Shown: positions 48,741 to 64,000 of the stretch, piece by piece | How positions within the stretch are numbered: the first letter of the stretch is position 1 | Layout: every line of letters starts with the position of its first letter | DNA from: Methylobacterium nodulans ORS 2060 | GTDB taxonomy: Bacteria; Pseudomonadota; Alphaproteobacteria; Rhizobiales; Beijerinckiaceae | DNA: 64,000 nt | Assembly: GCF_000022085.1 (NCBI RefSeq) | Contig: NC_011894.1 | Location: 6,508,501-6,572,500, forward strand | Reading direction: 5' to 3' | Program-made: the position numbers and the translations under genes | The notes under the pieces: model-generated | Told to the model about the DNA's origin: nothing | Database searches by the model: none | What the model saw: the letters and a program-made list of their open reading frames with translations, nothing else

Positions 48741-50206
48741 GAGCCCGTCCGAGTAACGGTTTGATGCGTTGGGACTAAGGTTGAGATCTGGGCGGATGGC
48801 TCCTGCGCCACAGGCTCAGCGCGCGGCCTGCGCCAGCTTCAGGAGGTTATGGGCGGTGCAGATCATCGCCCACTCGCCGCGGACCTGATCGAGCCCACGT
48901 AGCAGGAACTGTCGGAAGCCTCTGGCCTGCTTGATCTGCCCGAACACCGGCTCGACGACCTGCTTCCTGAGACGGTAACGGCTCCGGCGCCCAGCCCGCT
49001 TCAGGCGGACGGCCATCGCGCTCATCAGGGGCATCTTCGTCAGCCTCCGGCGACCTGCTGCATCCGCCTCGCCGTGACGGGCACGGCCCGGAGCGAGATA
49101 GGCTGTGATCCGTCGCTCCTGCAGCGCGGCCAGGTTCGCCTCGGTGGCAAAGCCGGCATCTCCGGAGACCTCCCGCGGCTTGCGCCCGAGATGGGTGCAG
49201 ACGCCGTCGACGAGCGGCACGAGAGCGCGCGAGTCGGCGGGGTTCGTCACGAGCCGATGCGCGACGATCACCTGATGGGCCGCATCAACCGCAATCTGGC
49301 CGTTGTAGCCCTGCACGAACCCGTCGCGCGTGGGCAGGATGCGGCTGTCCGGGTCGGTGAAGTTGCGCTGCGCCCGGTCGGGCGGACCGCCGTCCTCGCC
49401 CCGCAAGGGCCGACCTTGCCAGCGCATGCCCGACGAGGCCCCCGGCCCGTCCTCGTCCTCCGGATCGGGCGGATCGGCAGCCTCTGCCTCCAACGCGGCC
49501 TTGGCGGCGCGGATCGTCTCCAGCCGCCGCTGCTTGTCGGCCATCCAGGCCGGTGTCTCGTCGCCACGATGGTCGGTCCCATGAGCCCGATCCTCCGCCG
49601 CGTCGGCCTCGCGCGCTTGATCCAGCCAAGCCTCGACCTCGGCGGCCAGCGTCGACTCGGCCGCCTTCATCCGGCCGTAGCTCATCGCCTTGTGGCGCGA
49701 GGCGTTGGCCTTCAGCTTGGTGCCGTCCACCGCCACGTGGGCAAAGCCGACCAGCCCGGCCGCCCGGCACAGCCGCAGCACCTGCACGAACAGGTCCGAG
49801 AGCGCCGTCAGATGCCGCTTGCGGAAGTCAGCGATGGTGCGGAAGTCGGGCCGGTTCAGGCCGGTCACGGCCATGAAGTCAACCCGCTCCTCGCAGGCGC
49901 GGGCGAGCTGACGCGACGAGTACAGACCGCGGCTGTAGCCGTAGAGGAGCAGGGCCACCATCATGCCGGGATGGTAGGGCGGGTAGCCGCGCTCCTCGGT
50001 GTAGGTGTCGAGAATGGCTGAGAGGTCGAGCGCCTCGCGCACCGTATCGCGCACGAAGTGCGCCATGTGCCCGGGCGGCACGAACTCATGCAGCGAGGGT
50101 GGCAGCAGCCAGCCCTGATCGACGTCCCAGGAGCGAAACACCTTGGCCATGAGCCGAGTGAATCATCCCAAAGCGCCGCCGTCGAGGTACTTACTCGGAC
50201 GGGCTC
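48741..50206 (-). mobile_element. IS1182-type element 2, complete, with target duplication
   Basis: Perfect 16-base terminal inverted repeats GAGCCCGTCCGAGTAA mark both ends. The 4-base target CTAG is duplicated at 48737-48740 and 50207-50210. The reading frame of the host gene is restored by precise excision, so both borders are exact. Confidence 0.92.
48816..50150 (-). CDS. IS1182-family transposase
   Basis: A 444-residue DDE transposase: MAKVFRSWDVDQGWLLPPSL at the start, RPDFRTIADFRKRHLTALSD, VAVDGTKLKANASRHKAMSY with the first Asp, EVSGDAGFATEANLAALQER with the second and KQVVEPVFGQIKQARGFRQF with the Glu. All catalytic parts are present and the frame is uninterrupted. It is different from both other IS1182 elements in this window. 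Confidence 0.9.
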   Translation of the reverse strand: MAKVFRSWDVDQGWLLPPSLHEFVPPGHMAHFVRDTVREALDLSAILDTYTEERGYPPYHPGMMVALLLYGYSRGLYSSRQLARACEERVDFMAVTGLNRPDFRTIADFRKRHLTALSDLFVQVLRLCRAAGLVGFAHVAVDGTKLKANASRHKAMSYGRMKAAESTLAAEVEAWLDQAREADAAEDRAHGTDHRGDETPAWMADKQRRLETIRAAKAALEAEAADPPDPEDEDGPGASSGMRWQGRPLRGEDGGPPDRAQRNFTDPDSRILPTRDGFVQGYNGQIAVDAAHQVIVAHRLVTNPADSRALVPLVDGVCTHLGRKPREVSGDAGFATEANLAALQERRITAYLAPGRARHGEADAAGRRRLTKMPLMSAMAVRLKRAGRRSRYRLRKQVVEPVFGQIKQARGFRQFLLRGLDQVRGEWAMICTAHNLLKLAQAAR

Positions 50207-51717: not shown

Positions 51718-53253
51718 GGCCTGTTGAAAAAGGGTGGTTAGGCTTTGTCACGGCGGTAGAGCAGTGATTCCCTTCCAGTGTTGGTGGCTGGGAGGGCCCC
51801 ATGCTGGGTCGGCGGGATCGGGATCAACCCGAGTTGTTCGTGGCAGGCTCGCTGCGCCAGATTTTGCCGGATGATCACATCCTGGTGCGGGTCGACCGGG
51901 TGCTCGATCTGTCCTGGCTGCGGGCGAGCGTGGCAGACCTATACTGCGCGACCACCGGCCGACCAGGCATCGATCCCGAGGTCGCCGTGCGGCTGATGCT
52001 GGCCGGGTTCCTGCTCGGGATCGTTCACGACCGCCGCCTTTTGCGTGAGGCACAGGTCAACCTCGCGATCCGCTGGTTCGTCGGCTACGGCCTACACGAG
52101 GCGCTACCGGATCATTCCTCGCTCACCCGCATCCGCCAGCGCTGGGGCGCGGAGCGGTTCAAGGCGATCCTGGTGCGCACGGTGGAGGCCTGCGTGGCCG
52201 CCGGGATTGCCAAGGGTGAGGTGGTCCACATCGACGCCTCGCTGGTGCGCGCCGACGTGACCTGGGACGCTATCGCCGACGCTCACGCCGAGGCCGTCAC
52301 CCGGGCGCACGCGCCCTTGCCGGACACGACCCCGCCCGCGCCGTGCCAGGAGCCACGTCCGGCGCCCACCTCGGGCCGCACAAGTGCGGGTAGCAAGCCG
52401 CGGCGTGTCTGCACCACCGATCCGGACGCCTCCCTGGGCAAAATACGAAGCAATCTGCCCGCCCAGCCCTCCTCCAAGCAGCACACCGCCGTCGATGCCG
52501 CGTGCGGGGTCGTCCTCGACATCTTGGTCACGACGGGGGCCGCCCACGAGAGCACCACCGTCGAGGACCAGCTCGACGCCGTGACGGCCGCCACCGGCCA
52601 GCCGATCCGGATCGCTACGCTGGACGCGGGCTACGCGATCACGCGCCTGTTGGCGAGCCTGGAGGCGCGCGGCATCGAGGCCATCGTTCCCACCCGACCC
52701 GAGCGGCCGCCCCGGCCCGGCGTCATCCCTGTGCGGCGCTTCAAGCTCGATGCCCGCCACAACCGCGTGCGCTGCCCGCGAGGCCGCACGCTGCGCCCCC
52801 ATGGCAAGCCGGACGCCGACGGGTTCCAGGCCTACCGCGCCCTGGTGAAGGACTGCACTGCCTATCCGCTGCGCCCGCGCTGCTTCAGCCCGACCCTGAA
52901 GCGGCGGGCCATCCTCCTGCACAAGGATCATCCCGCCCTGATCCGAGCCCGGCGCAAGCACCGGGCCTGGGGGCCACGGGAGAAGGCGCTCTATGCCTCG
53001 CACCGCGGCCGGGTCGAGGGCGTGCATGGCGAGGCCAAGACCTGGCATGGCCTGGACCGCGCGATCCGGCGCGGGCTCGGCAACATGAGCATCCAGGCCT
53101 ACCTGACCGCTGCCGCCATCAACCTCAAGCGCCTCGCGGCCGCGATCCGTCTGCTTCTGCGCAGCCTCCAGCTCTGGCACGCGCACCTGGGTCATCCCGT
53201 CGCGCGGCCAGCCGCGTAAGCCAACAAACTTAAACTGGCTTCTTCAACGGGCC
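51718..53253 (+). mobile_element. IS1182-type element 3, complete
   Basis: The ends read inward as GGCCTGTTGAAAAAG (left) and GGCCCGTTGAAGAAG (right), nearly identical inverted repeats. A single transposase gene lies inside. CG-rich flanks on both sides hide any target duplication. Confidence 0.75.
51801..53219 (+). CDS. IS1182-family transposase
   Basis: A 472-residue transposase: VLDLSWLRASVADLYCATTG, HEALPDHSSLTRIRQRWGAE, VVHIDASLVRADVTWDAIAD with the first Asp, ATLDAGYAITRLLASLEARG with the second and HRGRVEGVHGEAKTWHGLDR with the Glu. Between core and C-terminus a cysteine-bearing insert (CTAYPLRPRCFSP) is typical for the family. No interruption, so the element may be active. Confidence 0.9.
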   Translation: MLGRRDRDQPELFVAGSLRQILPDDHILVRVDRVLDLSWLRASVADLYCATTGRPGIDPEVAVRLMLAGFLLGIVHDRRLLREAQVNLAIRWFVGYGLHEALPDHSSLTRIRQRWGAERFKAILVRTVEACVAAGIAKGEVVHIDASLVRADVTWDAIADAHAEAVTRAHAPLPDTTPPAPCQEPRPAPTSGRTSAGSKPRRVCTTDPDASLGKIRSNLPAQPSSKQHTAVDAACGVVLDILVTTGAAHESTTVEDQLDAVTAATGQPIRIATLDAGYAITRLLASLEARGIEAIVPTRPERPPRPGVIPVRRFKLDARHNRVRCPRGRTLRPHGKPDADGFQAYRALVKDCTAYPLRPRCFSPTLKRRAILLHKDHPALIRARRKHRAWGPREKALYASHRGRVEGVHGEAKTWHGLDRAIRRGLGNMSIQAYLTAAAINLKRLAAAIRLLLRSLQLWHAHLGHPVARPAA

Positions 53254-53406: not shown

Positions 53407-53928
53407 TCAACCGCGATACCAGGAGATCAGGCCAGCCCCAGGCGCGAGCAGGATGAACGACCATGCCAGGGCTGACGGCAGATTCGCTGCCTGGAAGACT
53501 AAGCGGCGCACGCCAAAAACCCCTGCGACGAGCGGGATCACCGCCCGGATTGGCCCGAAGAAGCGACCCAGCGCCACCGCGCCGGCACCCCAACGCGCGC
53601 AGAAGGCATCGGCCCGCGCCACGGCCTTGGGGTATCGCCGCATCGGCCACATGCGCTTAGCGTCGTCCTTGAAGTAGCGGCCGAACTCGTACGAGAGCCA
53701 GTCGCCGAGCGCTGCCCCGAGCGCAGCGCAGAGCACCACGGGCCAGAAGGCGACATCGGCGGCCGCGATCATCGGGCCGATGGCGAGCAGGATGACTGTC
53801 GCGGGCACCAGGAACGACAGGAAGGCGACGGACTCGCAGAAGGCGAGCACGCCCGCGATCAGTGGCGTCCAGGCCTTGTGGGCTTCCACGAAAGCGAGCG
53901 TTGCTTGGCGGATTGCGTCAAAGTCCAT
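53407..53928 (-). CDS. DedA-family membrane protein
   Basis: A 173-residue inner-membrane protein of the DedA/VTT superfamily, thought to flip polyprenyl or phospholipids or support proton-driven transport. Family motifs are visible: FCESVAFLSFLVPATVILLA with the acidic Glu, ALGAALGDWLSYEFGRYFKD, and ALGRFFGPIRAVIPLVAGVF with the essential Arg residues. Two re-entrant and three to four full helices are expected. ATG 53928 is chosen; a GTG at 53940 is possible. Slightly shorter than typical (about 200). Confidence 0.86.
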   Translation of the reverse strand: MDFDAIRQATLAFVEAHKAWTPLIAGVLAFCESVAFLSFLVPATVILLAIGPMIAAADVAFWPVVLCAALGAALGDWLSYEFGRYFKDDAKRMWPMRRYPKAVARADAFCARWGAGAVALGRFFGPIRAVIPLVAGVFGVRRLVFQAANLPSALAWSFILLAPGAGLISWYRG

Positions 53929-54108
53929 CAAGAGGATCACCTGCCGAGGGAAGCGAGAGAGGGTGGTGAGGGGCGCCCCGAGACCATGAGCTAGCGACGC
54001 TCAACTCGCGCGAACGCTTTTCGCTCCTCGGCGGTTGAAACCGGTCTTGGGGATGCCCTGCGATCTGGTCGGAGTACCGACCCGATACCCACAAGTGCCA
54101 CCACCGAG

Positions 54109-54324
54109 TTGCTGGCGGGGCCGGTTCCGAACCCGACGGGCACGGATCACGCGACGAAGACGGGGTTCTGGACGCTCACGCTCGGCTCCGTGGGCGTCGT
54201 CTACGGCGCCATCGGCACCAGTCCGCTCTACGCGCTCAAGGAATCGCTGCATGCGGCGGCGGGCGAAGGCAGGCCTCACGGTCTCACGCGCGAGATGGTG
54301 TTCGGTGTCGTCTCCCTGATGCTC
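54109..54324 (+). pseudogene. kup: Kup potassium transporter, N-terminal fragment
   Basis: The frame encodes FWTLTLGSVGVVYGAIGTSP, LYALKESLHAAAGEG and TREMVFGVVSLML, the beginning of a Kup K+ uptake protein. The conserved Asp of the GDIGTSPLYA motif is Ala here. After VSLML the match ends and the same frame runs into a hydrolase fragment. Only about 10 percent of the gene remains. Confidence 0.7.
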
Positions 54325-54350
54325 GACGGCGCTCACGCGCAGGTTCATCA

Positions 54351-54603
54351 TCCTGTGACGCCTGTGCGAGCGGCCGCCGCGGCCATCTTTCTCATGTCTC
54401 TCGCCCTGATGGCGGCCCAGACGCGGAGATGGGCTCGCGAGGCGGAAAAGAGGAATCCACCGCTCGGGCGCTTTATCGAGACCGACGGCGTTCGCCTGCA
54501 CTACGTCGAACGCGGATAGGGCCCGCCGCTCATCGTGCTGCATGGAATCGGCAGCTTGGCGCAGGAATTCCTTTTGGGAGACTTCATTGCCCTCGCCAGC
54601 AGA
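54351..54603 (+). pseudogene. Alpha/beta hydrolase, N-terminal fragment with stops
   Basis: In frame with the kup fragment comes a membrane helix (AAAAAIFLMSLALMAAQ), then GRFIETDGVRLHYVERG and a TAG. The homology continues past the stop with GPPLIVLHGIGSLAQEF (oxyanion HG motif), stops again and shifts frame. The Ser/Asp/His triad is not present. Confidence 0.6.
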
Positions 54604-54667: not shown

Positions 54668-56059
54668 TCAGAATGACCCGCCGGTCCTGAAATCGTCGCC
54701 GCCGAAGGCCCCACCCGTCCCGAAGCTGTCCGGGGGCGGGATGGGCAGTCCACCACCAAAGCCGGAATCCCACGGACTTGGCCCCCGGTGAAAACCACCA
54801 TGCAGGACTTGCCCTAGGACCGCGCCGCCAATCGCGCCCGTGAGAACGCCGCCCAGCACATTGCCTAGGGCGGCCTCGTTGCCGAATGTCCCGTAAGGGG
54901 TGTCGTAGCCCTGATGTCGAAGCTGCTGCCACTCGTGCTCGATCATCGCGCGGCGCTGAGCCGTCTCCTTGAGCTGGCGGTGAGCGTCGACCGCCTGTCG
55001 CAACGCTTGGTTGATCATGACATCGGTCGCCTGGATGCGAGCGACGATCTCTTCGTCCCGTGGTGTCGGGGTCGCAAGAGCCTCCCGGTAGAGTTGGTCG
55101 AGGTTCTCGCGTTCGTCGGCGGCAGCCAACAGCTCGATGGCCTCACGATACGGGGTGTCCCCCTCCAGGACAGAGGCGTCGTAGGAGCGATCTAACACAG
55201 CAAGGGACTCGCGCGCCTCAGCGAGCCTGTGCTCCGCGTCGGACAGGGTGTCGCGCGCCTTGGCCGCCTTGGTCTCTGTCGTCTCGATGCTGGCCTCGAT
55301 GAGCGCCTTGCGCTCTATGGCGGTGAGCCTGGCACGTGCCTCGCGGAGGTCGCTGATGATGCGCCTGGAATGCTCCCGGAGCCGCTCGGGAATCTCGTTG
55401 AGAAGGGCATAGTTGGCCCGCGCCTTGTCGTAGCCGACGACACGCGCAACCAGACGATCCATGTAGCGAGTGAACGGATTAACTCGGTAGGCAGCCGTGC
55501 TGAACTTCCGGCTCCACAGGTACATGAACAGTGGGTCGGCCTCATAGGGTCGGCGCTTTTCGTCCCGGTCGGCCTCCGCCTGCACAGCCTTCTTCTCGGC
55601 CTGCCGGGCCTGTCCGGTGATCTCATCAACCCGAGCCCGGACCGAGATCCACTCGGGGTCGATGCTGATTTTCGCCTCGACCTTCTTGCGGGTGGTCTCG
55701 ACCTCCCCCAGGGCCTTTTCCAAAGCGTCAGTGGCGGCCTGCCGCTCCGTCTCCGCCTGCCTCACCCGCTCCTCAGCTTGCCGGCGCCGCTCAGTCAGTT
55801 GCTGCAGGGCATCCTGGCGGCTCTTGAGAAGGCTGACGGCTTGGCGTTCGGCGGCATCAAGTTGGCTGACGACTTTATCCTTCGTGATCGCGTCCAGCTT
55901 CAGCCGTGCGAGTTCGCGGAAGGCCTCCGTGCGTTGGATGCGCAGGCGGCCGACCTCCTTAGTCGCCGTGGTATAGGCCCGCTCGAGCTGCGCCTCCTGC
56001 TGGCGAGCCTTTTCGATAGTATGCTCTATCTGCGCGAGCGCCTGCCGTCCTGAGATCAT
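54668..56059 (-). CDS. Coiled-coil protein with a Gly-rich tail, third gene of the DUF6384 operon
   Basis: A 463-residue protein dominated by long helices likely to form coiled coils (residues about 10-160 and 220-370, for example KARQQEAQLERAYTTATKEV and QDALQQLTERRRQAEERVRQ). A globular segment around DPLFMYLWSRKFSTAAYRVN and PFTRYMDRLVARVVGYDKA interrupts them. Near the C-terminus lies a glycine-zipper stretch (LGNVLGGVLTGAIGGAVLGQ), which could enter a membrane, and then a Gly/Pro/Phe-rich tail. No enzyme motif is visible. Its ATG is 5 bases past the DUF6384 stop region, so the genes are coupled. Function unknown. Confidence 0.72.
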   Translation of the reverse strand: MISGRQALAQIEHTIEKARQQEAQLERAYTTATKEVGRLRIQRTEAFRELARLKLDAITKDKVVSQLDAAERQAVSLLKSRQDALQQLTERRRQAEERVRQAETERQAATDALEKALGEVETTRKKVEAKISIDPEWISVRARVDEITGQARQAEKKAVQAEADRDEKRRPYEADPLFMYLWSRKFSTAAYRVNPFTRYMDRLVARVVGYDKARANYALLNEIPERLREHSRRIISDLREARARLTAIERKALIEASIETTETKAAKARDTLSDAEHRLAEARESLAVLDRSYDASVLEGDTPYREAIELLAAADERENLDQLYREALATPTPRDEEIVARIQATDVMINQALRQAVDAHRQLKETAQRRAMIEHEWQQLRHQGYDTPYGTFGNEAALGNVLGGVLTGAIGGAVLGQVLHGGFHRGPSPWDSGFGGGLPIPPPDSFGTGGAFGGDDFRTGGSF

Positions 56060-56063
56060 CCTG

Positions 56064-57044
56064 TCACCATCGTAGGATCGCGCCGCCGAGGACCGGCATC
56101 TGGTAGTCGACGTCCAGATAACCGCGCCGCTTCTCGCCCAAACGATTGCGCTGCACGATGCCGTCGTCGTTCTTATCCTGCTGCACTTGCATGGCCGTGG
56201 CCTCACTCACACGCACGCCCCACTTAGACGTGGTCACCGTCTGGCCGTCCTCTTCGCTGGTGACCGGTAGGCTGAGGATCCGACCATCGGGGGCCACCGG
56301 CTCCACAATCAAATAGTAGTTTCGCCCTGCTGGGTTGCGCGGCGGCACGCGCCAGATGCCGGTGGGCTCGCCTGGGCGGGAGACGATGCGCAAGATATAC
56401 TCGCGGCGCAGATCTGCTCGCAGAGCCTCTAGATTGTTTATGGCTTGCCGTGCGCCTTCCGCGTCCTTCCGCTCGATGGCAGCTTTTCCGTCCGCCAGGA
56501 TCTGGTCGGCTCTCTCCCGCGCCGCCGGAAGCTGCGCCTCGCGCAGCACGTCCTCGTGCCCTTGTTCCAGGGCAGCCGGCAATCTCTCGGCGAGATCGGT
56601 CCGCTCTCGCTCGGTCCGAGCCTGCTCCTGCGCCGCCCGCTGCCGGGCGGGCTCGACGACGCCGAACTGATAAGCGCTCCAGCCGAGGCCGAGAAGCGCC
56701 GCGATGGTCAGGAGAGTCCGGCCTACACGCCCGCGGTTGATCCAGGCCCGCGCCACGGTGCGTGAGAAACTCGGGCCGGGTGGGGTGTAGGCGAAGCGCT
56801 GCTCCTTGAGGGCTCGCACCCCTTCCAGAAGGATGCGATCGGGCACCTCGATCCCCTGCCCGCGATAGATGTCGCGCAGCCTCTGTAGAAGCTGAGCGTC
56901 ACGAACCTCCTCGCCAAGTTCGCGGCTGACAAGGTTCTCCTGATGGCGAAGCGTGTCCACCACGTCCATTGCGAGCATTACCTCGTCGAGGCTCTGGGGA
57001 GCCTTTCCGGCGTCCTGCCCGGTCAGTGCGGCTTGGTCAGCCAT
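56064..57044 (-). CDS. DUF6384 family membrane protein
   Basis: A 326-residue protein with the DUF6384 hallmark LDEVMLAMDVVDTLRHQENL (residues 19-38), then LGEEVRDAQLLQRLRDIYRG and QGIEVPDRILLEGVRALKEQ. A single helix (TLLTIAALLGLGWSAYQFGV, about residues 110-129) anchors it. A coiled coil follows (residues 130-230), then a beta-rich C-terminal domain (GRNYYLIVEPVAPDGRILSL, RRGYLDVDYQMPVLGGAILR). The frame from 57278 is artefactual; ATG 57044 overlaps the stop of the first gene by 8 bases. Known only as a domain of unknown function. It probably bridges a cytoplasmic domain and a periplasmic domain. Confidence 0.8.
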   Translation of the reverse strand: MADQAALTGQDAGKAPQSLDEVMLAMDVVDTLRHQENLVSRELGEEVRDAQLLQRLRDIYRGQGIEVPDRILLEGVRALKEQRFAYTPPGPSFSRTVARAWINRGRVGRTLLTIAALLGLGWSAYQFGVVEPARQRAAQEQARTERERTDLAERLPAALEQGHEDVLREAQLPAARERADQILADGKAAIERKDAEGARQAINNLEALRADLRREYILRIVSRPGEPTGIWRVPPRNPAGRNYYLIVEPVAPDGRILSLPVTSEEDGQTVTTSKWGVRVSEATAMQVQQDKNDDGIVQRNRLGEKRRGYLDVDYQMPVLGGAILRW

Positions 57045-58213
57045 TGGCCGGCAATGCCTGCCCTTCCGCCACCAGGCGGGCAATGCGCCGCTTGCCGTCC
57101 TCAACGGCATCGCGGATCTCCGTCGAGTTCTGGGTCGCGAGCCGGCGCATCTCACCGATGATCTCCAGGGAGCGCTCCTGGAACGTGATAACCGAGTCCA
57201 CGAGCTTCTTGACCGCGTCGGCCCGGATGGTCGGTCCGTAGCCTGCCTTAACGGCGGCTTCGCCGACCTGATCGCCAATCTCGGCCAGCACCTCCAGGCT
57301 TCGGGACACGCCCTCCTTCATCTCGTTCAGGGTCTGGGTCGCCTCGTGCAGCCCGAACATGCCGGTGAACGACGCCTTTAGCGCCGTGAACACAGAATCA
57401 TTCGTCGAGAAGAAGGTCACGGCCTGAGCATAGACACGCTCCTTGGCGTTGGTCATCTGCATTAATCGCGCCATGATGACCTCGGAAGTGTTGTAGCTGA
57501 CCGTCAGGTTATCCGCGAGGTCCTTGGCGATCTGGTAACGCTTCTCTTCGTCCTGGGTGCGACGGAGCTGTTCGTCGCGGGTTAGCTCAAGCCGGGCGCG
57601 CTCGGCCACCTCTGTACCCTTGAAGTTGACGACGGCATCGGATGCCCTCTGCAACCCCGCCTTGGCCGCCTCAAGTTTCTGCTCCGCGGTCCGGAGCACC
57701 TCTAGAGCCATCACCTCGGCGTGCTTGAGAGCGCCGCGGAAGTCGCGGTAGGCATCGAGGATAATCTGCTCGCGCTGGATCTGATCCTTGGTCGACCGAG
57801 TCACATCGAGATAAACCTCCTTGATCTTGTCGAAACGATCCACGACGTCTCCTCTGGATATCTTCATCCATACATTTGTGATACGCTCCATGAAATCGAT
57901 CGTATGATCTTCAAGCTGGTCTACCATCTTCTTCGTGTCGTCGCGAATGGAGTAAGGCCTCGGTAATCTGGCGGTAGCGCTCCCCAATTTCCATTGCCTG
58001 AGTCTGCTCACGCACGACCTCGTTGAACACGCTGGTCTGACCGAGAGTGCGGGCGATGACTACGATCCGGTCCTGATCCAAGTCCGAGATCTTCTCCAAT
58101 AGACCGTTGATGGGGGCATCCATGGCTGCAGGAGGAACAATCCCCAAGTCACGCAGGGCGGAGGTGGCCTTGTCGAGGTACTGCATAGGGGACCTCACGA
58201 CGACATCGGACAT
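57037..58213 (-). pseudogene. Coiled-coil protein, first gene of the DUF6384 operon, one-base frameshift
   Basis: The first frame, from ATG 58213, runs to FNEVVREQTQAMEIGERYRQ and ITEA. The second continues YSIRDDTKKMVDQLEDHTID to the end. They join in frame if one T of GCCTTACTCC (near 57954) is removed, giving 391 residues. Further conserved stretches are NVWMKISRGDVVDRFDKIKE, ILDAYRDFRGALKHAEVMAL, YNTSEVIMARLMQMTNAKER and FFSTNDSVFTALKASFTGMF. The protein is almost wholly helical, with no signal peptide or membrane helix. I recall relatives annotated loosely as cell surface proteins, without evidence. The shift is either inactivating or a sequence error. Confidence 0.7.
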
Positions 58214-58545
58214 GGCGCATCCTTCCAAAACGTTATCGAGGCTCCCGGTCTCTGACCGTGCGGATGCATCGAGAGAGGGAAATATGAAGGTTTGCTTCGC
58301 CTTTGGAAGCACAGGTTCCAATGAGCTAGGTGCCTGGCGGTTCCAAGAACCGCCTTCCGCACCGAATCACCAGTGGTCCCATTTCCGGCTGAAAGCGCCT
58401 GTACATCAGCGGCGCGAGCTGCTTGCGCGCTAATAGATTGCCCTCCAAGCAAAAGCTAGACAGTGCCGGAACCTTAACCTTAAATGAGTTGCGGCATTGC
58501 ACAGCTTGATCAACCCCCACCGGGTGGCTCTTCGCGAAGTTTGAT
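58214..58545. other. Upstream region of the DUF6384 operon
   Basis: About 330 bases without a gene. It should contain the promoter of the three-gene operon. No obvious operator or hairpin other than the small element that starts at about 58546. Confidence 0.35.
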
Positions 58546-58666
58546 ATTGTTGGCGAATTCCGATCAGGCCCGCCGCGGAGCTCGGGACGGAACCAGCGTC
58601 ACGCCCGTGCAACGGCCGCGCCAAACGCCCCGCCGAAGAGCCACCCGAATTCGCCAACAGTATACC
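58546..58666. mobile_element. MITE-like element with IS1182-type ends
   Basis: About 120 bases bounded by inverted repeats ATATTGTTGGCGAATTC (left) and ATACTGTTGGCGAATTC (right, read inward). The shared TGTTGGCGAATTC is the same as in the ends of IS1182 element 1 at 26512-28294. No gene lies inside, so it is a non-autonomous or deleted relative. Confidence 0.6.
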
Positions 58667-58904: not shown

Positions 58905-59453
58905 CTACTGGTCGTGCGCGTACTCGTACCCGCTGTCCGTGATCGGCCTCACGAGCTCCGCAAGCGGCGAGAGGTCCGGCCGCTGCATCACCAGCCAGAC
59001 GACGAGCACAACCATCCCCATCCACATCGTGCCGAGTTGCACCTTGTCGCGCGGCGGCACCCCTTTGCCGAACAGATCCGGCACCGTGATCGAGATCACG
59101 AGCGCAACAACCCCGAACACCACCCAGAGGTCGAAGAACGGGTTATTAATCGGATGGGCGGGCTGACCGGACAGCCGCCAGAACAGCCCGATCGCGCAGT
59201 TGAGAGTGAGGCCGACACAGAACAGGAAGATCATCAGCGCGTAGAGGTGCGGCCCGTCCGGCCAGCCGCGCGTGAGGATCGCGGCCTTCGCCGGTCGCCA
59301 GTAGGCGAAGGCGGCCCAGCCGGACAGGACGAGGAAGACCGCCCGCAGACCGTCGCCCCGCGGCACGATCGGGGTCAGCGTCACCAGCAGGACGTAACTC
59401 GCGGCGACGACCAGCAGGGTCCACAGCATCCGGTACTCGAACACGCGCCGCAT
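58905..59453 (-). CDS. Phage membrane protein, four helices
   Basis: A 182-residue protein with four to five hydrophobic segments (YRMLWTLLVVAASYVLLVTL, LRAVFLVLSGWAAFAYW, YALMIFLFCVGLTLNCAIGL, WVVFGVVALVISITVPDLFG, MWMGMVVLVVWLVM). It is the last gene of the minus-strand prophage block, one base past the next gene's end. A role in lysis or in blocking superinfection is possible given the position behind endolysin and holin-like genes, but no family is recognised. Confidence 0.65.
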   Translation of the reverse strand: MRRVFEYRMLWTLLVVAASYVLLVTLTPIVPRGDGLRAVFLVLSGWAAFAYWRPAKAAILTRGWPDGPHLYALMIFLFCVGLTLNCAIGLFWRLSGQPAHPINNPFFDLWVVFGVVALVISITVPDLFGKGVPPRDKVQLGTMWMGMVVLVVWLVMQRPDLSPLAELVRPITDSGYEYAHDQ

Positions 59454-59684
59454 CTAGTTCGCGCCTTTCCTGGCTCGGCTGGCCCGGTCGATGGTGCGGC
59501 CCAGCAAGTCCAGCATCGCCTGATCCGCGCCCCGCATCTGCGCGGCCTGCGCCTCGATCGAGCGGACCTTCTCGGCGGTCTCCGCGCGCTGCATCGCCAG
59601 CGCCCGGCTCACCTGCTCCTGCTCGGCCGCCCGCTCCGCGGCCCGTCCGCTCAGCATCCGCCACATGGCCTGAAACACCCCCAT
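59454..59684 (-). CDS. Small helical phage protein
   Basis: A 76-residue hydrophilic helix: MGVFQAMWRMLSGRAAERAA, then AMQRAETAEKVRSIEAQAAQ and MLDLLGRTIDRASRARKGAN. It starts two bases after the stop of the 59687-60103 gene. The ORF extending to 61391 in this frame is a read-through of other genes and was not used. Unknown function; the position suggests a lysis-cassette accessory protein. Confidence 0.55.
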   Translation of the reverse strand: MGVFQAMWRMLSGRAAERAAEQEQVSRALAMQRAETAEKVRSIEAQAAQMRGADQAMLDLLGRTIDRASRARKGAN

Positions 59685-59686
59685 GG

Positions 59687-60103
59687 TCAGCGCCCCGCCG
59701 TCTGGCGGTCGATCTGACCCCGCATCTCGTTGATCTGGCGGTTGCTGTCGCGCGCGACGTCCTCGAGTTCGCGCAGCGCCGCGGTGTGCGCGTCGATCGT
59801 CTTCTCCACGCGCTCGTCGCGCAGGAGCTGCTTGTCGAGCGCCCCCCTCGCCCAAAGGTCCATGGTCTGGACGGTGGTGATCAGGGATTGCTGCGATTGC
59901 TGGAGCCCCGTCATCGCGTCCTTGAGTGCCCCCAAGATCCGGTTGGTCTCGGCGGTGGTGATCAGGGTCTCGCGCGCCTCCTTGAGCCGCTGCTCGGCCT
60001 CGGTGTCGCGCTTGCGCTGGAGGTAGCCGATGACGATCAGCATGATGACCAGCAGGGCGCCGACGACGCCCTGCTCGGCGATCTTCTGAAGGGCGCCGTC
60101 CAC
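59687..60103 (-). CDS. Phage membrane protein with coiled coil
   Basis: A 138-residue protein with one N-terminal helix (GVVGALLVIMLIVIGYLQRK) followed by a long coiled coil (RDTEAEQRLKEARETLITTA, ALRELEDVARDSNRQINEMR). The layout resembles small spanin-like or DUF2730-like phage proteins located next to the endolysin. It starts ten bases after the stop of the next gene upstream. No lipobox is visible. Confidence 0.6.
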   Translation of the reverse strand: MDGALQKIAEQGVVGALLVIMLIVIGYLQRKRDTEAEQRLKEARETLITTAETNRILGALKDAMTGLQQSQQSLITTVQTMDLWARGALDKQLLRDERVEKTIDAHTAALRELEDVARDSNRQINEMRGQIDRQTAGR

Positions 60104-60112
60104 GTCCGCGCC

Positions 60113-60678
60113 TCAGCGCTTCGCCACGACCGAGGGCAGGATCGCGTTGATCTGCGCGTCCTTCTGCTGGCTGGAGCGGGACGAGCCGAGCCAGAAGGCG
60201 ATGGCGGTGCCGAGCGCGAGGTTCGAGGCGCCGTAGGCTTGGCTCAGGAGCTGGTAGACCCGCTCGGGGATCTCGCCCTGGATGAAGTAGAGCGCGCCGG
60301 TCAGCAGCGCCCAGGCGGTCAGGATCGCGATGGTGACGATCGCCGGCATCGAGGCGGTCCAGTGGTTCGCCTGCGCCAGCCCGACCTGCATCTGGCGGGC
60401 GCTGGCGAGGTCGCCCAGCTCGGCGAGCTGCACCTTCGCCGCCGCGTCGATCTCGGCGAGCTTGATTTGCGCGCCGGTCGGGTCGGCCTGCACCGCCTGG
60501 GTAATCGCCTGCGGGGTCGCCGGCACGCCCAGCGCCGCGCCGATGGCGGCCGCCGCGCCTCGCCCGATCGCCGCCCCGATGCCGCCGCCGGCGGCCCGGC
60601 CAGCGTGGTCCCGATGAGCGTGCCGAGCGAGGGCAGCCCGACTTGCGCGAGCTGCCCGGCGAGTTGGAGCCAATCCAT
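60113..60678 (-). pseudogene. Holin-like phage membrane protein with a one-base frameshift
   Basis: The first frame, from ATG 60678, reads MDWLQLAGQLAQVGLPSLGT and LIGTTLAG. The next frame continues with GGGIGAAIGRGAAAAIGAAL, IKLAEIDAAAKVQLAELGDL and two membrane helices (PAIVTIAILTAWALLTGALY, ASNLALGTAIAFWLG). The parts join if one base is added near 60598 in a G/C run. Composition and position before the endolysin fit a class of phage holin-like proteins with an Ala/Gly-rich N-terminus. Decay or base-count error. Confidence 0.55.
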
Positions 60679-60694
60679 GTCGTAAGGTCTCCGG

Positions 60695-61630
60695 TCAGGC
60701 GGCCTTGCGGCCGAACAGGCTCTTGAGCCACGCGCCCAGGCCGCCGGTCCGCACCATGCCGGGCGCGGGCGGCGGCTCCTCGACCACGGGCGGCAGGGGC
60801 GGGGCGATGTCCGCCAGCGTGGGCTTCGCGGTGTTGACGGGGACCGGCGGGATCGGCGCCATCGGCGCGAGCGGCGCCCCGACCTGCGGCTGCACGACGA
60901 GGCTGGGTTCGATCTGCGAGGTCGCCGTGGTCCCGGGTCGGTACCCGGCCGCCTCCAGCGCCCGCTTGAACGACCGGTAGTAGCCGGCGACCTTCAGGCC
61001 ATTGGCGTCCGGGTTGACCATCGCGCGGGCGTTGGTCGGGTCCTCGCGCTGGGGGCCGAAGTAGTGCGCGAGCTTCTTGCCGGTATACCAGCCCTCGCTC
61101 AGCCCGATGAACAGCATCGCGGCGGCGATCCGGTCGTCCAGCATCAGCGCTGGCGTCGAGACGAGATCCTGCTCCGGCGTGAGATAGCCGAGCCTGCGCA
61201 GCCGCACCGACGCGCGCTGCGCGTTGTCCTTGCCGGTGGACTGCACCAGCCCCATGCCGCGAAAATCCCAGCCGTCCGTGGAGGGGGCCGGGGCGTTGCC
61301 GAGGCGCCCGCCGTAGACCTTGATCGCCAGGGCCTTCGGGTTGCGCACGTAGGGCGCTGCTGCGGCCTCGGTCGGGAAGCGACTCGGCCACACGGCCTTG
61401 ATCCGCGCGGCCGAGGTGTAATTCAGGCTCTCGGTGCGCGGGATCATCGCGCCGCCGGTTTCCCAGAAGGCCGTCGCGAAGCAGCAGGCGAGGGCCGTAA
61501 GCAGGAGGTCGGGCGGGGCCATGTCGAGCATGGCGTTCATCCCGTCGACCTGGGACTGGGTGAGGCTGCCGCCGAAGGGCTGCTGGCGGACGGCATCGTA
61601 GAACGCCCGCCGATCGAGGGCAGCGGTCAT
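60695..61630 (-). CDS. Phage endolysin, GH19-like
   Basis: A 311-residue cell-wall hydrolase. The lysozyme/chitinase-like domain (residues 1-215) has AFWETGGAMIPRTESLNYTS with the two Glu expected for catalysis (E57, E67), then WDFRGMGLVQSTGKDNAQRA (the Gln/Thr region of the active site) and GYYRSFKRALEAAGYRPGTT. A Pro-rich linker and a short C-terminal tail (GGLGAWLKSLFGRKAA) follow. There is no signal peptide, so it needs the holin-like protein encoded just downstream to reach the wall. Confidence 0.82.
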   Translation of the reverse strand: MTAALDRRAFYDAVRQQPFGGSLTQSQVDGMNAMLDMAPPDLLLTALACCFATAFWETGGAMIPRTESLNYTSAARIKAVWPSRFPTEAAAAPYVRNPKALAIKVYGGRLGNAPAPSTDGWDFRGMGLVQSTGKDNAQRASVRLRRLGYLTPEQDLVSTPALMLDDRIAAAMLFIGLSEGWYTGKKLAHYFGPQREDPTNARAMVNPDANGLKVAGYYRSFKRALEAAGYRPGTTATSQIEPSLVVQPQVGAPLAPMAPIPPVPVNTAKPTLADIAPPLPPVVEEPPPAPGMVRTGGLGAWLKSLFGRKAA

Positions 61631-61665
61631 GCGGATCTCCGGTGTCTGGGGTGGGCGGGGTGCGC

Positions 61666-62061
61666 CTAGACGATGGGCGTGGTGGGCTGCGCCGCGGCGG
61701 CGTCGAGGCTCAGCGTCAGACCGAGGCTGGCGAGGACGGCCAGGACGCCCGCCTCCGAGGTGGCCGCGTCGATCGCGACGTTCGTCTGCATCCGCGCCAT
61801 CTCCAGGCGGGTCGAGTCGGCCGCCATGGCATCGACCATCTGGGCCATCTCAGTGTCGGAGATGCCCCGGATCTGAGCTTCCTCGTGGATCATGTCGGAG
61901 GCGCCGCCGGCCAGGACCCGGCGGGCCTCCTGGAGCTTCAGGACGTACATCGCCCGCAGGGTCGGCTCGACGCCATCGCTCTCGGCGATCGACACGAAGT
62001 AGCTCTGCGCCCGCTTCTTGGCGGCTTCCTTCAGGGTGGTGAGGTCCGGACCGAGGATCAT
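61666..62061 (-). CDS. Hypothetical phage protein
   Basis: A 131-residue protein rich in helices: LKEAAKKRAQSYFVSIAESD, LRAMYVLKLQEARRVLAGGA, ISDTEMAQMVDAMAADSTRL and a hydrophobic end SEAGVLAVLASLGLTLSLDA. Its ATG overlaps the stop of the next gene upstream by four bases. The position between tail fibre and endolysin suggests a tail-fibre assembly role. Not recognised. Confidence 0.55.
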   Translation of the reverse strand: MILGPDLTTLKEAAKKRAQSYFVSIAESDGVEPTLRAMYVLKLQEARRVLAGGASDMIHEEAQIRGISDTEMAQMVDAMAADSTRLEMARMQTNVAIDAATSEAGVLAVLASLGLTLSLDAAAAQPTTPIV

Positions 62062-62501
62062 GCCGTCACCTCCAGCGTGATCGCCGCGCGCCGGGCGGGG
62101 AACGGCTCGATGGTCAGCGTGTACGTGCCGGGGATCGAGAAGCCGATCGCCAGATCCCCGCCCGGGTGCTCGATGCTCCCGTTGTAGGGGCCGGCGAAGC
62201 GGACCGGGCCGGCCGGCACGGCGGGGATCGTCACCTCCTCGCCGGCGGCGGCCGTGAGGCTCGCCGGCAGCTCCAGCACCGGGCGCTCGCGCAGCTCGGG
62301 CGCGTCGCCGGACAGGTCAACGTAATGCGTCGCCTGCTGGCCCTCGCCGGGCAGCATTCGGTGGCCCTGCAGCCGGGCGATCTGGAGCACGCCGCCGGCC
62401 ATGCGACCATGGACGGTAAGACGTCCGGTGTCGTCGTAGGCCACGTAGGAGACCTGCTCCACGAGGGCCGGGTGGGCGGCGTCCTCCACGCCAGCGCTCA
62501 T
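62058..62501 (-). CDS. Hypothetical phage tail-associated protein
   Basis: A 147-residue, mostly beta protein: VEQVSYVAYDDTGRLTVHGR, LPASLTAAAGEEVTIPAVPA and a C-terminal sandwich-like IPGTYTLTIEPFPARRAAIT. It overlaps the tail-fibre gene stop (62498) by four bases and is probably cotranslated. It may be a fibre-tip or chaperone protein; this is inferred only from position. Confidence 0.55.
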   Translation of the reverse strand: MSAGVEDAAHPALVEQVSYVAYDDTGRLTVHGRMAGGVLQIARLQGHRMLPGEGQQATHYVDLSGDAPELRERPVLELPASLTAAAGEEVTIPAVPAGPVRFAGPYNGSIEHPGGDLAIGFSIPGTYTLTIEPFPARRAAITLEVTA

Positions 62502-64000
62502 CGCGACAACTCCGTAACCTTGAGGAATGTGGTGCCACTAGCCCTGGCGGCATTGCTGTTGACCAGACGATACCAGTAGACGCCGGGATTTGCGACGGTA
62601 TCGACCGTCACGTAGCAGGTCGGTCCCATGTAGACCAAGTTATTGGTACTGTTTATGTGGTAGGCGCAGTTGCCCGCCAGGATATGAGGCCCGTCGCTCC
62701 GGTAGACGTCGAGCGCACCGATAGCGGTCCCGAGAGAATAGCCGTTTCCGCCCGTGCCGGAAAAATACATGCCGATCTCGACACGAGTGTTGGGTTGTCT
62801 GATGTTGATCCAGCAGTAAATGTCGTCGCCGGTACCAGTCTGTCCCCACACCGTCTGCGAGATGGCGTTGTTGTTGACCTGCAAGTTATCGACAACCAAG
62901 TTGCCGATCTGCGCCGAGTAGGAGATGAGCTGCCCGGTCGACAGCTCGCTGGCGGTGATGGAGTTGGCGACGAGCTTGTCCGCCGAGATCGAGCGCGCCC
63001 AGATGCCGCCGCCGTTGAGGCCGGTGCCGTTGATGATCAGGTTGCCGGCGGCATCCCACATCGCGAGGCCCCAGCCGCCGCCGGAAAGATCCTCGATGTA
63101 GCCGACCGCCACGCGCAGCACGCCATTGCTATCGCGCGAGAACATCCGGCCCCAGCCGGCCTCCGGGCGGGCCTGGAGCACGAAGTAGTCGGAGCCCACG
63201 CGGATGTCGGCCGACGACAGCATGCCCGCGCCGATCTTGTCGGCGGTGACCTGCGCGGCGCCGATGTGGCTGGCCTGGATCTGCCCGGCCGCGATGTGGC
63301 TGGCCTGGATCGCGTTGGCGGCGATCTGGTTGGCGGTGATGGTGCCGGTGTTGATCCGGGTGCCGTCGATGATCGTGCCGCCATAGACGGGGTTGAGGCC
63401 GGCATACCCGTCATACGAGCACATCAGGACGGTGTTCGTATTGGCGAAGATGTCCGGCCAGTTGTTTGCGGCAGCATAGAGCACGCTGGGGGTCGTCTTG
63501 TCCCACCAGACGTAGACATAGGCGCCGCCTCCTCCAAAGCTGCCGGCCGGCACGAGGCTCGACACGATGTTGCCGGCATCATCGATCCACAGGACGTAGC
63601 CTGCGGTCCATGAGAGGACGCGGGTGTTCTTATCGACCGAGAAATCGAGGTTGACCGTGCGGATGGTCGACCGGCCAGACCACGGTGAGCACGAACAGGC
63701 CGGCGTGGGTCCGATCGCTGTCGAACGGCAGCCCGTCGAGGGCGGCGGTGTTCGGGTGAGCGCCGCCGGATCGAGGCGGGCGAGCTGGTCGGCGTAGCGG
63801 CGCGCCCACTCCTCTTGGTGGGCGGTGAGCCCGATGGTGCCGCCCTCGCGCCGGCCGGTGGCGGGGTTGATCCGGCCGACCAGATCGAGCGCCACGTCCC
63901 GCGGGTTGCGCCCCGCCACCATGCCGGCGGTGAGCGCCGCGCGGATCATGGTGCGCTGGTCGTCCACGATCTCGGTCACTTTTCGCGAGGAATGGGGTCC
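62498..64000 (-). CDS. Phage tail-fibre protein joined to a head-protein segment (runs off window)
   Basis: The frame is open to the right window edge. Its first 80 residues or so (QRTMIRAALTAGMVAGRNPR, INPATGRREGGTIGLTAHQE, EWARRYADQLARLD) match phage head-morphogenesis (Mu F/SPP1 gp7-like) proteins. After about 63750 the sequence becomes a tail-tip/fibre protein: VNLDFSVDKNTRVLSWTAGY, repeated I-x-A-x-x-I units (IAANAIQASHIAAGQIQASH), VGSDYFVLQARPEAGWG and a beta-rich end. Between 63665 and 63750 another frame reads LDGLPFDSDRTHAGLFVLTV, probably the true tail sequence, so the joint is out of frame and compensated. This is a deletion fusion inside a decayed prophage. Confidence 0.6.
   Translation of the reverse strand, partial: GPHSSRKVTEIVDDQRTMIRAALTAGMVAGRNPRDVALDLVGRINPATGRREGGTIGLTAHQEEWARRYADQLARLDPAALTRTPPPSTGCRSTAIGPTPACSCSPWSGRSTIRTVNLDFSVDKNTRVLSWTAGYVLWIDDAGNIVSSLVPAGSFGGGGAYVYVWWDKTTPSVLYAAANNWPDIFANTNTVLMCSYDGYAGLNPVYGGTIIDGTRINTGTITANQIAANAIQASHIAAGQIQASHIGAAQVTADKIGAGMLSSADIRVGSDYFVLQARPEAGWGRMFSRDSNGVLRVAVGYIEDLSGGGWGLAMWDAAGNLIINGTGLNGGGIWARSISADKLVANSITASELSTGQLISYSAQIGNLVVDNLQVNNNAISQTVWGQTGTGDDIYCWINIRQPNTRVEIGMYFSGTGGNGYSLGTAIGALDVYRSDGPHILAGNCAYHINSTNNLVYMGPTCYVTVDTVANPGVYWYRLVNSNAARASGTTFLKVTELSR

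Follow-up and report, generated by a model that had tools for sequence, protein, structure and literature searches.

TelA-family proteins (PF05816) are helical, are encoded in small operons, also on plasmids and in phages, and include YaaN of Bacillus and KlaB of RP4, the latter of which we take to be TelA. Published reports describe the requirement for all three of KlaA, KlaB and KlaC in fertility inhibition (PMC5696584), XpaC-TelA in Listeria (PMC12791056), Ter components in jumbo phages (PMC7824862), and the relationship of Ter to phage or colicin resistance (PMC6955997). Here we analyse three genes of Methylobacterium nodulans ORS 2060, whose 8.84 Mb genome comprises 8 contigs, within a window of 64,000 nucleotides (NC_011894.1, positions 6,508,501 to 6,572,500). 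Named A, B and C, they encode a helical protein, a DUF6384 protein, and a coiled-coil protein, respectively. A reading made from the sequence alone had suggested that the three form one envelope-linked complex, perhaps a stress, tellurite-like or phage-response device.

The resemblance of this trio to described systems is partial. Like TelA, A is a helical protein of similar length from a small operon that also occurs on plasmids and in phages, but it has no PF05816 match, and one query each found 700 plasmid records matching TelA, against 11 matching A. Proteins such as SSB and FtsZ end in a docking tip that follows a flexible linker; C likewise has a Gly/Ser-rich linker and a short conserved end with a terminal Phe, but differs in its sequence, its coiled-coil body, and its lack of a Pfam match. 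B is a full-length member of PF19911 (427.1 bits against a gathering cut-off of 25, spanning model positions 3-308 of 308), and reaches the cut-off of no other Pfam or NCBIfam family. As the sequence-only reading held, DUF6384 has no assigned function, and a literature search for DUF6384 and PF19911 found no paper naming either in the library searched.

A constant three-gene unit

The constant association of A, B and C is new here. Loci were sampled by B alone, taking the best 80 of 139 relatives together with the window, and A adjoined B in all 81 and C was present in 77, the genes running A-B-C along the same strand; the four loci missing C lie where the contig ends. Matches to the N-terminal piece of the window's A (P0001) were found in 78 of these loci, with the three misses at contig ends or starts, and matches to its second piece (P0002) in all 81. 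Among 297 genomes surveyed in the window's order, A was found in 81, B in 82, and both in 80: a single genome (G518) had a remote A (118 bits) without B, and two had B, below the Pfam cut-off, without A. The unit is sparser elsewhere, with B in 2/299 genomes of an even sample of the phylum, B over the cut-off in 3/111 genomes of the window's genus, and A in 13/274 genomes of another class of the phylum. All three genes were called in ten of the 11 loci fetched from that class, and in the eleventh A and C were present but the simple gene finder did not call B; a class sampled by 48 genomes gave no match, which is uninformative. Co-occurrence is thus conserved far beyond close relatives, so that the condition under which the sequence-only reading would have counted as refuted did not arise, and relatives of A keep the same company in other proteobacteria, as that reading stated. 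Single loci apart, no fourth gene family recurs in the 81 loci outside Devosiaceae and unnamed alphaproteobacterial bins, and in the absence of a fourth gene recurring beyond Devosiaceae synteny, the unit is best regarded as exactly three genes.

The three genes are packed in the window as tightly as had been claimed, all on the minus strand, with A (ending at 57037) and B (starting at 57044) overlapping by 8 bp, and a gap of 4 bp between the stop of B and the start of C. A is split between two frames after about 86 residues, and would have 391 residues if restored; intact copies in Microvirga have 392 aa. Relative to G316, the nearest relative used, dN/dS was 0.045 and 0.040 for the two pieces of A, 0.127 for B and 0.159 for C. 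As purifying selection acts strongly on the two pieces of A, and relatives have intact copies, the frameshift is either recent or a sequencing error, and the split says nothing against the function of the A family.

That family is large, with 7,998 scored candidates all passing E 0.001, and 50 positions at least 97% identical across 263 sequences. In a tree of 97 A proteins, from which the window is absent because its pieces were too short, and in which some branches are long and bootstrap values not settled, two Desulfobacterota sequences fall inside a mostly gammaproteobacterial group (100/96). The tree also places Microvirga and G316 together with a Bradyrhizobium plasmid, with AM1 and G355, of the window's family, standing apart. 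This pattern fits vertical descent in some families combined with repeated transfer. The remote A-like protein of G518 (L159 9385-10368, minus strand), in a genome without a DUF6384 match, is a possible paralogue outside the trio.

The unit is also carried by plasmids and phages. All 11 plasmid records with A have the trio in the same order, in Microvirga, Bradyrhizobium, Methylorubrum, Rhizobium and Pseudomonas hosts. The lytic jumbo phage phiR1-37 again preserves the order, with A as g190 (452 bits), B as g191 (93 bits) and C as g192 (44 bits), whereas phage Dfl-JY45 has B and C, with A not found using one query. Besides the phiR1-37 copy, four IMG/VR contigs carry A, three of which show the trio, two of them (L182 and L183) near a gene judged by eye to be integrase-like; three of the five queries used in viral contig scans found no relative. 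A text search for g19 or gp19 in the main text of the phiR1-37 transcription paper found nothing (PMC4848604), and the accessible part of PMC13030884 does not name g190-g192.

Predicted topology and a candidate complex

The predicted topology of B, and its terminal Trp, are also newly described here. At a Kyte-Doolittle threshold of at least 1.6, 20 of the 23 B proteins aligned have one predicted membrane helix, and its N-terminal flank is the richer in Lys and Arg in 17 of these 20. Preceding this helix is a segment containing the motif LDEV.LAMDVVDTLR, invariant in the 23-row alignment, a relaxed form of which occurs in 71 of 85 non-redundant B proteins. Following it, the AlphaFold2 model of a Microvirga relative (L007) has a C-terminal beta-rich domain with pLDDT mostly above 90, and the protein ends in Trp in 82 of the 85. 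A fold search of BFVD with B found G4KKD0 (4e-14), an unnamed protein of 440 aa, the same length as phiR1-37 g191.

The conservation of the C terminus is a further new observation. The pattern [TS][GST][GDRKE]xF-COOH ends 67 of 76 non-redundant C proteins, a set reduced from 111, in which some genomes occur twice, that excludes six duplicate loci and L093-L122; the set of 85 B proteins also excludes L187-L199. The tip is kept on most plasmids and in the two phages despite low overall identity in C, at 17-19% on aligned Pseudomonas plasmids and 18% in Dfl-JY45. In the whole window genome, F-x-T-G-x-x-F-stop matches once, at the end of C, where a second copy of the tip lies just upstream (Table 1). 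The "glycine zipper" previously proposed for the tail of C (residues 397-422) passes the hydropathy cut in the window and four Microvirga, which is only 5/23 sequences; what is conserved in the tail is instead its very end. Short terminal motifs of this kind, placed behind a flexible linker, usually mark docking peptides.

Our preferred explanation, which we hold tentatively and judge somewhat short of an even chance, is that the trio forms an inner-membrane complex, anchored by B, in which the tip of C docks on a partner, and which protects the envelope. Firstly, the three proteins would assemble into a single complex on the cytoplasmic side of the inner membrane; the close linkage, overlap and joint transfer of their genes suggest that they bind one another. 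Secondly, B would be the anchor: about 110 cytoplasmic residues including LDEVMLAMDVVDTLRH would lead into a single membrane helix, followed by a beta-rich domain in the periplasm that ends in a conserved Trp. Thirdly, A, the slowest-evolving part, would be a soluble, elongated helical bundle, and C a coiled-coil rod whose flexible tail is rich in Gly and Ser. Fourthly, the last residues of C, (F)x[TS]x[GD]xF-COOH, duplicated in several cases, may dock C on A or on the cytoplasmic portion of B. The complex might then act as a membrane-linked scaffold, supporting or sealing the inner membrane under envelope perturbation, and would have been acquired by megaplasmids and jumbo phages to that end. 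The conserved unit, the purifying selection, the predicted topology and the terminal tips are results of computation; the mutual binding, the identity of the protein that reads the tip, and the envelope-protection role are what we infer. The earlier proposal of one envelope-linked complex is supported as regards a single unit, and its envelope link by the predicted helix of B with a Lys/Arg-rich flank, whereas the binding of the three proteins is conjectural.

Several results weigh against this explanation. The window's own B is among the three of 23 below the hydropathy cut, such that the single helix claimed for it holds for most aligned relatives but misses in this copy, and three of the 20 B proteins with a helix lack the excess of positive charge on the N-terminal flank. 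Nine of 76 C proteins, including four plasmid copies, lack the tip as defined. The structure model of A is poor (mean pLDDT 65.5), and searches of solved structures in the PDB with B found no significant relative; with A and B, PDB chain sequence searches gave nothing below E 0.07, although a missing fold match is not evidence for a new fold. Upstream of A in 105 non-redundant loci, strict EcfG motifs were found in none, and LexA-type motifs in 1/105 and 0/105. The envelope-related genes near the trio (see below) are single cases among many genes, and may be there by chance.

Stress regulation of the trio was set aside, as neither these strict EcfG and LexA-type motifs, nor strict RpoE and RpoH motifs, were enriched upstream of A. 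Relaxed EcfG motifs numbered 4 against 2.2 expected, and sigma-54-like (2/105, 0.1 expected) and sigma-70-like (4/105, 0.3 expected) motifs were above chance, but too few to use. In Devosia loci, a conserved element upstream of A, around TTGCAATTGTCAG with GCAATCTA downstream of it, was seen by eye and is a possible promoter.

Comparison with stress, defence and filament systems

The trio could be a distant TelA-containing operon, comparable to KlaA-KlaB-KlaC of RP4 or XpaC-YaaN of Gram-positives, that acts with a Ter-type signal; this is unlikely, though it has several observations in its favour. Its three-gene shape and helical A resemble KlaABC. StiP takes its name from tellurite-like stress resistance. 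On the Pseudomonas megaplasmid pMPPla107, genes for a StiP-PELOTA protein, a metallophosphoesterase and a PTH2 protein lie directly upstream of A, and the record of pBASL58 annotates StiP and a peptidyl-tRNA hydrolase upstream of the trio. DUF533 genes, with a weak TerB score, are downstream of the trio in two loci (L027, L080). However, StiP was found in 1/297 genomes of the window's order, that one without the trio, and in neither the window genome nor the 80 trio genomes; nor is it annotated within the 9-14 kb fetched around the trio on the FeN3W, pNY8709-IMP and PA83 plasmids. Membership of Ter, suggested by the two megaplasmids, is therefore not carried by the order-wide search.

Kinship between A and TelA looked likely by eye. 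Against a TelA alignment of 28 rows, profile comparison of A gave global probabilities of 13% and 3.8%, against 0.1-0.2% for reversed controls, and local ones of 5.0, 5.3 and 3.3%, with reversed controls at 0.1-0.3% overall. Yet these span only 3-13%, are lower with a deeper alignment of A, and in the local comparison are similar to those of A with C in two of the same three runs, and higher in one (5.2, 1.6 and 2.8% for A with C). Neither the window's A pieces nor ten diverse A proteins matched PF05816 at E 1, and the window genome has no PF05816 match at E 0.001. Hence the tellurite-like link of the sequence-only reading is weak.

Neither the window's A pieces nor its C reached a Pfam or NCBIfam cut-off, ten diverse A relatives reached none in Pfam, and no Pfam domain was found among the 120 A candidates listed. 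Against Pfam, 13 relatives of A and 13 of C produced no more than isolated weak scores, with TelA not among the families listed for A (25 of 29). Single members matched TetR_C_24 (E 1.3e-4) and DUF7217 (E 5e-4), both under their cut-offs, and Flagellin_C (E 0.0012), also weakly; all were taken as chance similarity between helical proteins.

A device for defence or superinfection exclusion, stopping incoming phage or plasmid DNA at the membrane, would suit a trio carried by lytic phiR1-37 and megaplasmids, represented by B and C in Dfl-JY45, found near integrase-like genes in L182 and L183 and beside a prophage in the window, and patchily distributed in the window's genus. We consider it unlikely, as the trio is common in the order (80/297 genomes) in varied neighbourhoods, no neighbouring family recurs outside Devosiaceae synteny, although neighbours were not systematically scanned for defence genes, and PADLOC matched no part of the trio at better than E 0.002, and the C of Dfl-JY45 not at all. 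The best scores were E 0.0023 for C (JetC, a coiled coil) and E 0.0064 for the first piece of A (JetA), with none for B. Wadjet/MksBEF systems have an SMC ATPase and partner subunits that are absent from the trio. Such genes were seen near B and C only in the jumbo phage Dfl-JY45 (L090 8339-16150 / L125), where B and C precede genes for a DUF3584 protein resembling MukB (653 bits) and for one resembling MksE (28.8 bits); a condensin link was set aside, as this is one case with no matching PADLOC model. The phage response once suggested for the locus thus finds no known defence model and no enrichment of SOS or stress motifs, and the prophage beside it is circumstantial, but carriage by a lytic phage makes a role in phage biology conceivable in either direction.

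Two further alternatives are structural. C, with its coiled coil and Gly/Ser tail, could form filaments with A that are tethered by B. In favour of this are the long helices in the model of A, the long heptad-like stretches in C and its weak SMC-like scores, and FtsZ is among the filament proteins known to carry a docking tip at the end of a tail. It is nonetheless improbable: the scores (E 0.002 to 0.3) are at a level that coiled coils reach by chance, and neither A nor C matched a nucleotide-binding family. Alternatively, A could be a ClyA-type or BAR-like helical protein that inserts into or bends membranes, restrained by B and C. We regard this as very improbable, as the model of A is poor, helical bundles can reach Z scores of the level seen without kinship, Foldseek E-values were 0.017 or worse, and no hydrophobic insertion segment was found (no 19-residue window of at least 1.6 in 23 rows of alignment A1 or 13 rows of A4).

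Surroundings and implications

Table 1. Features of the trio and of its surroundings, in window coordinates.
Feature	Position	Strand	Details
Gene A, frame 1	57911..58213	-	100 aa to stop, about the first 86 residues being A; A4 profile 112.7 bits
Gene A, frame 2 (remainder to stop)	57037..57957	-	A4 profile 484.3 bits; dN/dS about 0.04
Gene B, DUF6384 protein, 326 aa	56064..57044	-	PF19911 427 bits, E 4.7e-128
B motif LDEVMLAMDVVDTLRH, predicted cytoplasmic	56943..56990	-	Conserved in alignment of B
B predicted membrane helix, residues 112-130	56655..56711	-	Hydropathy peak 1.47
B C-terminal beta-rich domain, predicted periplasmic, ending in Trp	56064..56399	-	AlphaFold2 model of relative
Gene C, coiled-coil protein, 463 aa	54668..56059	-	A5 profile 523.8 bits (window C is itself a row of this profile)
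C conserved central block (PLFMYLW...Y)	55484..55546	-	Alignments A3 and A5
C terminal tip FRTGGSF and stop	54668..54691	-	Terminal pattern conserved
C second tip copy FGTGGAF	54704-54724	-	
Inverted repeat, 17 nt	58544-58560 / 58647-58663		94% complementary, 86 nt apart; between trio and prophage
Prophage end, adjoining trio	58905-63979	-	Endolysin (phrog_181) and head morphogenesis (phrog_3517) matches
K+ transporter remnant, directly downstream of C	54109-54519	+	K_trans 34 bits, first 46/454 model positions
VTT-domain (DedA-like) gene	53407-53940		
Transposase-like gene, first of related pair	48816-50150	-	phrog_8928 and weaker transposase phrogs
Transposase-like gene, second of related pair	51801-53219	+	phrog_8928 and weaker transposase phrogs

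Scans for promoters, tRNAs and Rfam families found no feature above chance. Among the sampled loci, MscS-like genes lie upstream in L069 and L080, an AI-2E transporter gene upstream in a Microvirga locus (L007), a LysM-BON gene downstream in L077, and a penicillin-binding protein gene divergent from A in L157; rhomboid (L073) and patatin (L013) genes are further single neighbours. The MscS-like, rhomboid, LysM-BON and penicillin-binding protein genes, and the DUF533 genes of L027 and L080, are the envelope-related neighbours that speak for the preferred explanation. On three of the Pseudomonas megaplasmids (L088, L123, L092, L124), a dCTP deaminase gene is downstream of the trio, and on pMPPla107, type I-F Cas genes start approximately 9 kb from A.

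A bolder form of the preferred explanation, which we rate as distinctly improbable, is that the trio is a self-contained machine of bacteria and jumbo phages for remodelling or sealing the inner membrane, with C recruited by its docking tip. Membrane vesicles around the incoming genome have been described for phiKZ-like phages (PMC13282480). Were this true, the trio of a jumbo phage would act on the host-membrane compartment around the incoming genome, and that of bacteria on damaged or bent inner membrane.

A protein family of thousands, a domain of unassigned function, and a coiled-coil protein thus prove to be one unit, common in one large bacterial order and also carried by megaplasmids and a jumbo phage. 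The constancy of this trio, together with the conserved five-residue tip of C, makes an unassigned function testable, as the partner of the tip should be found either within the complex, or among the proteins of the host.

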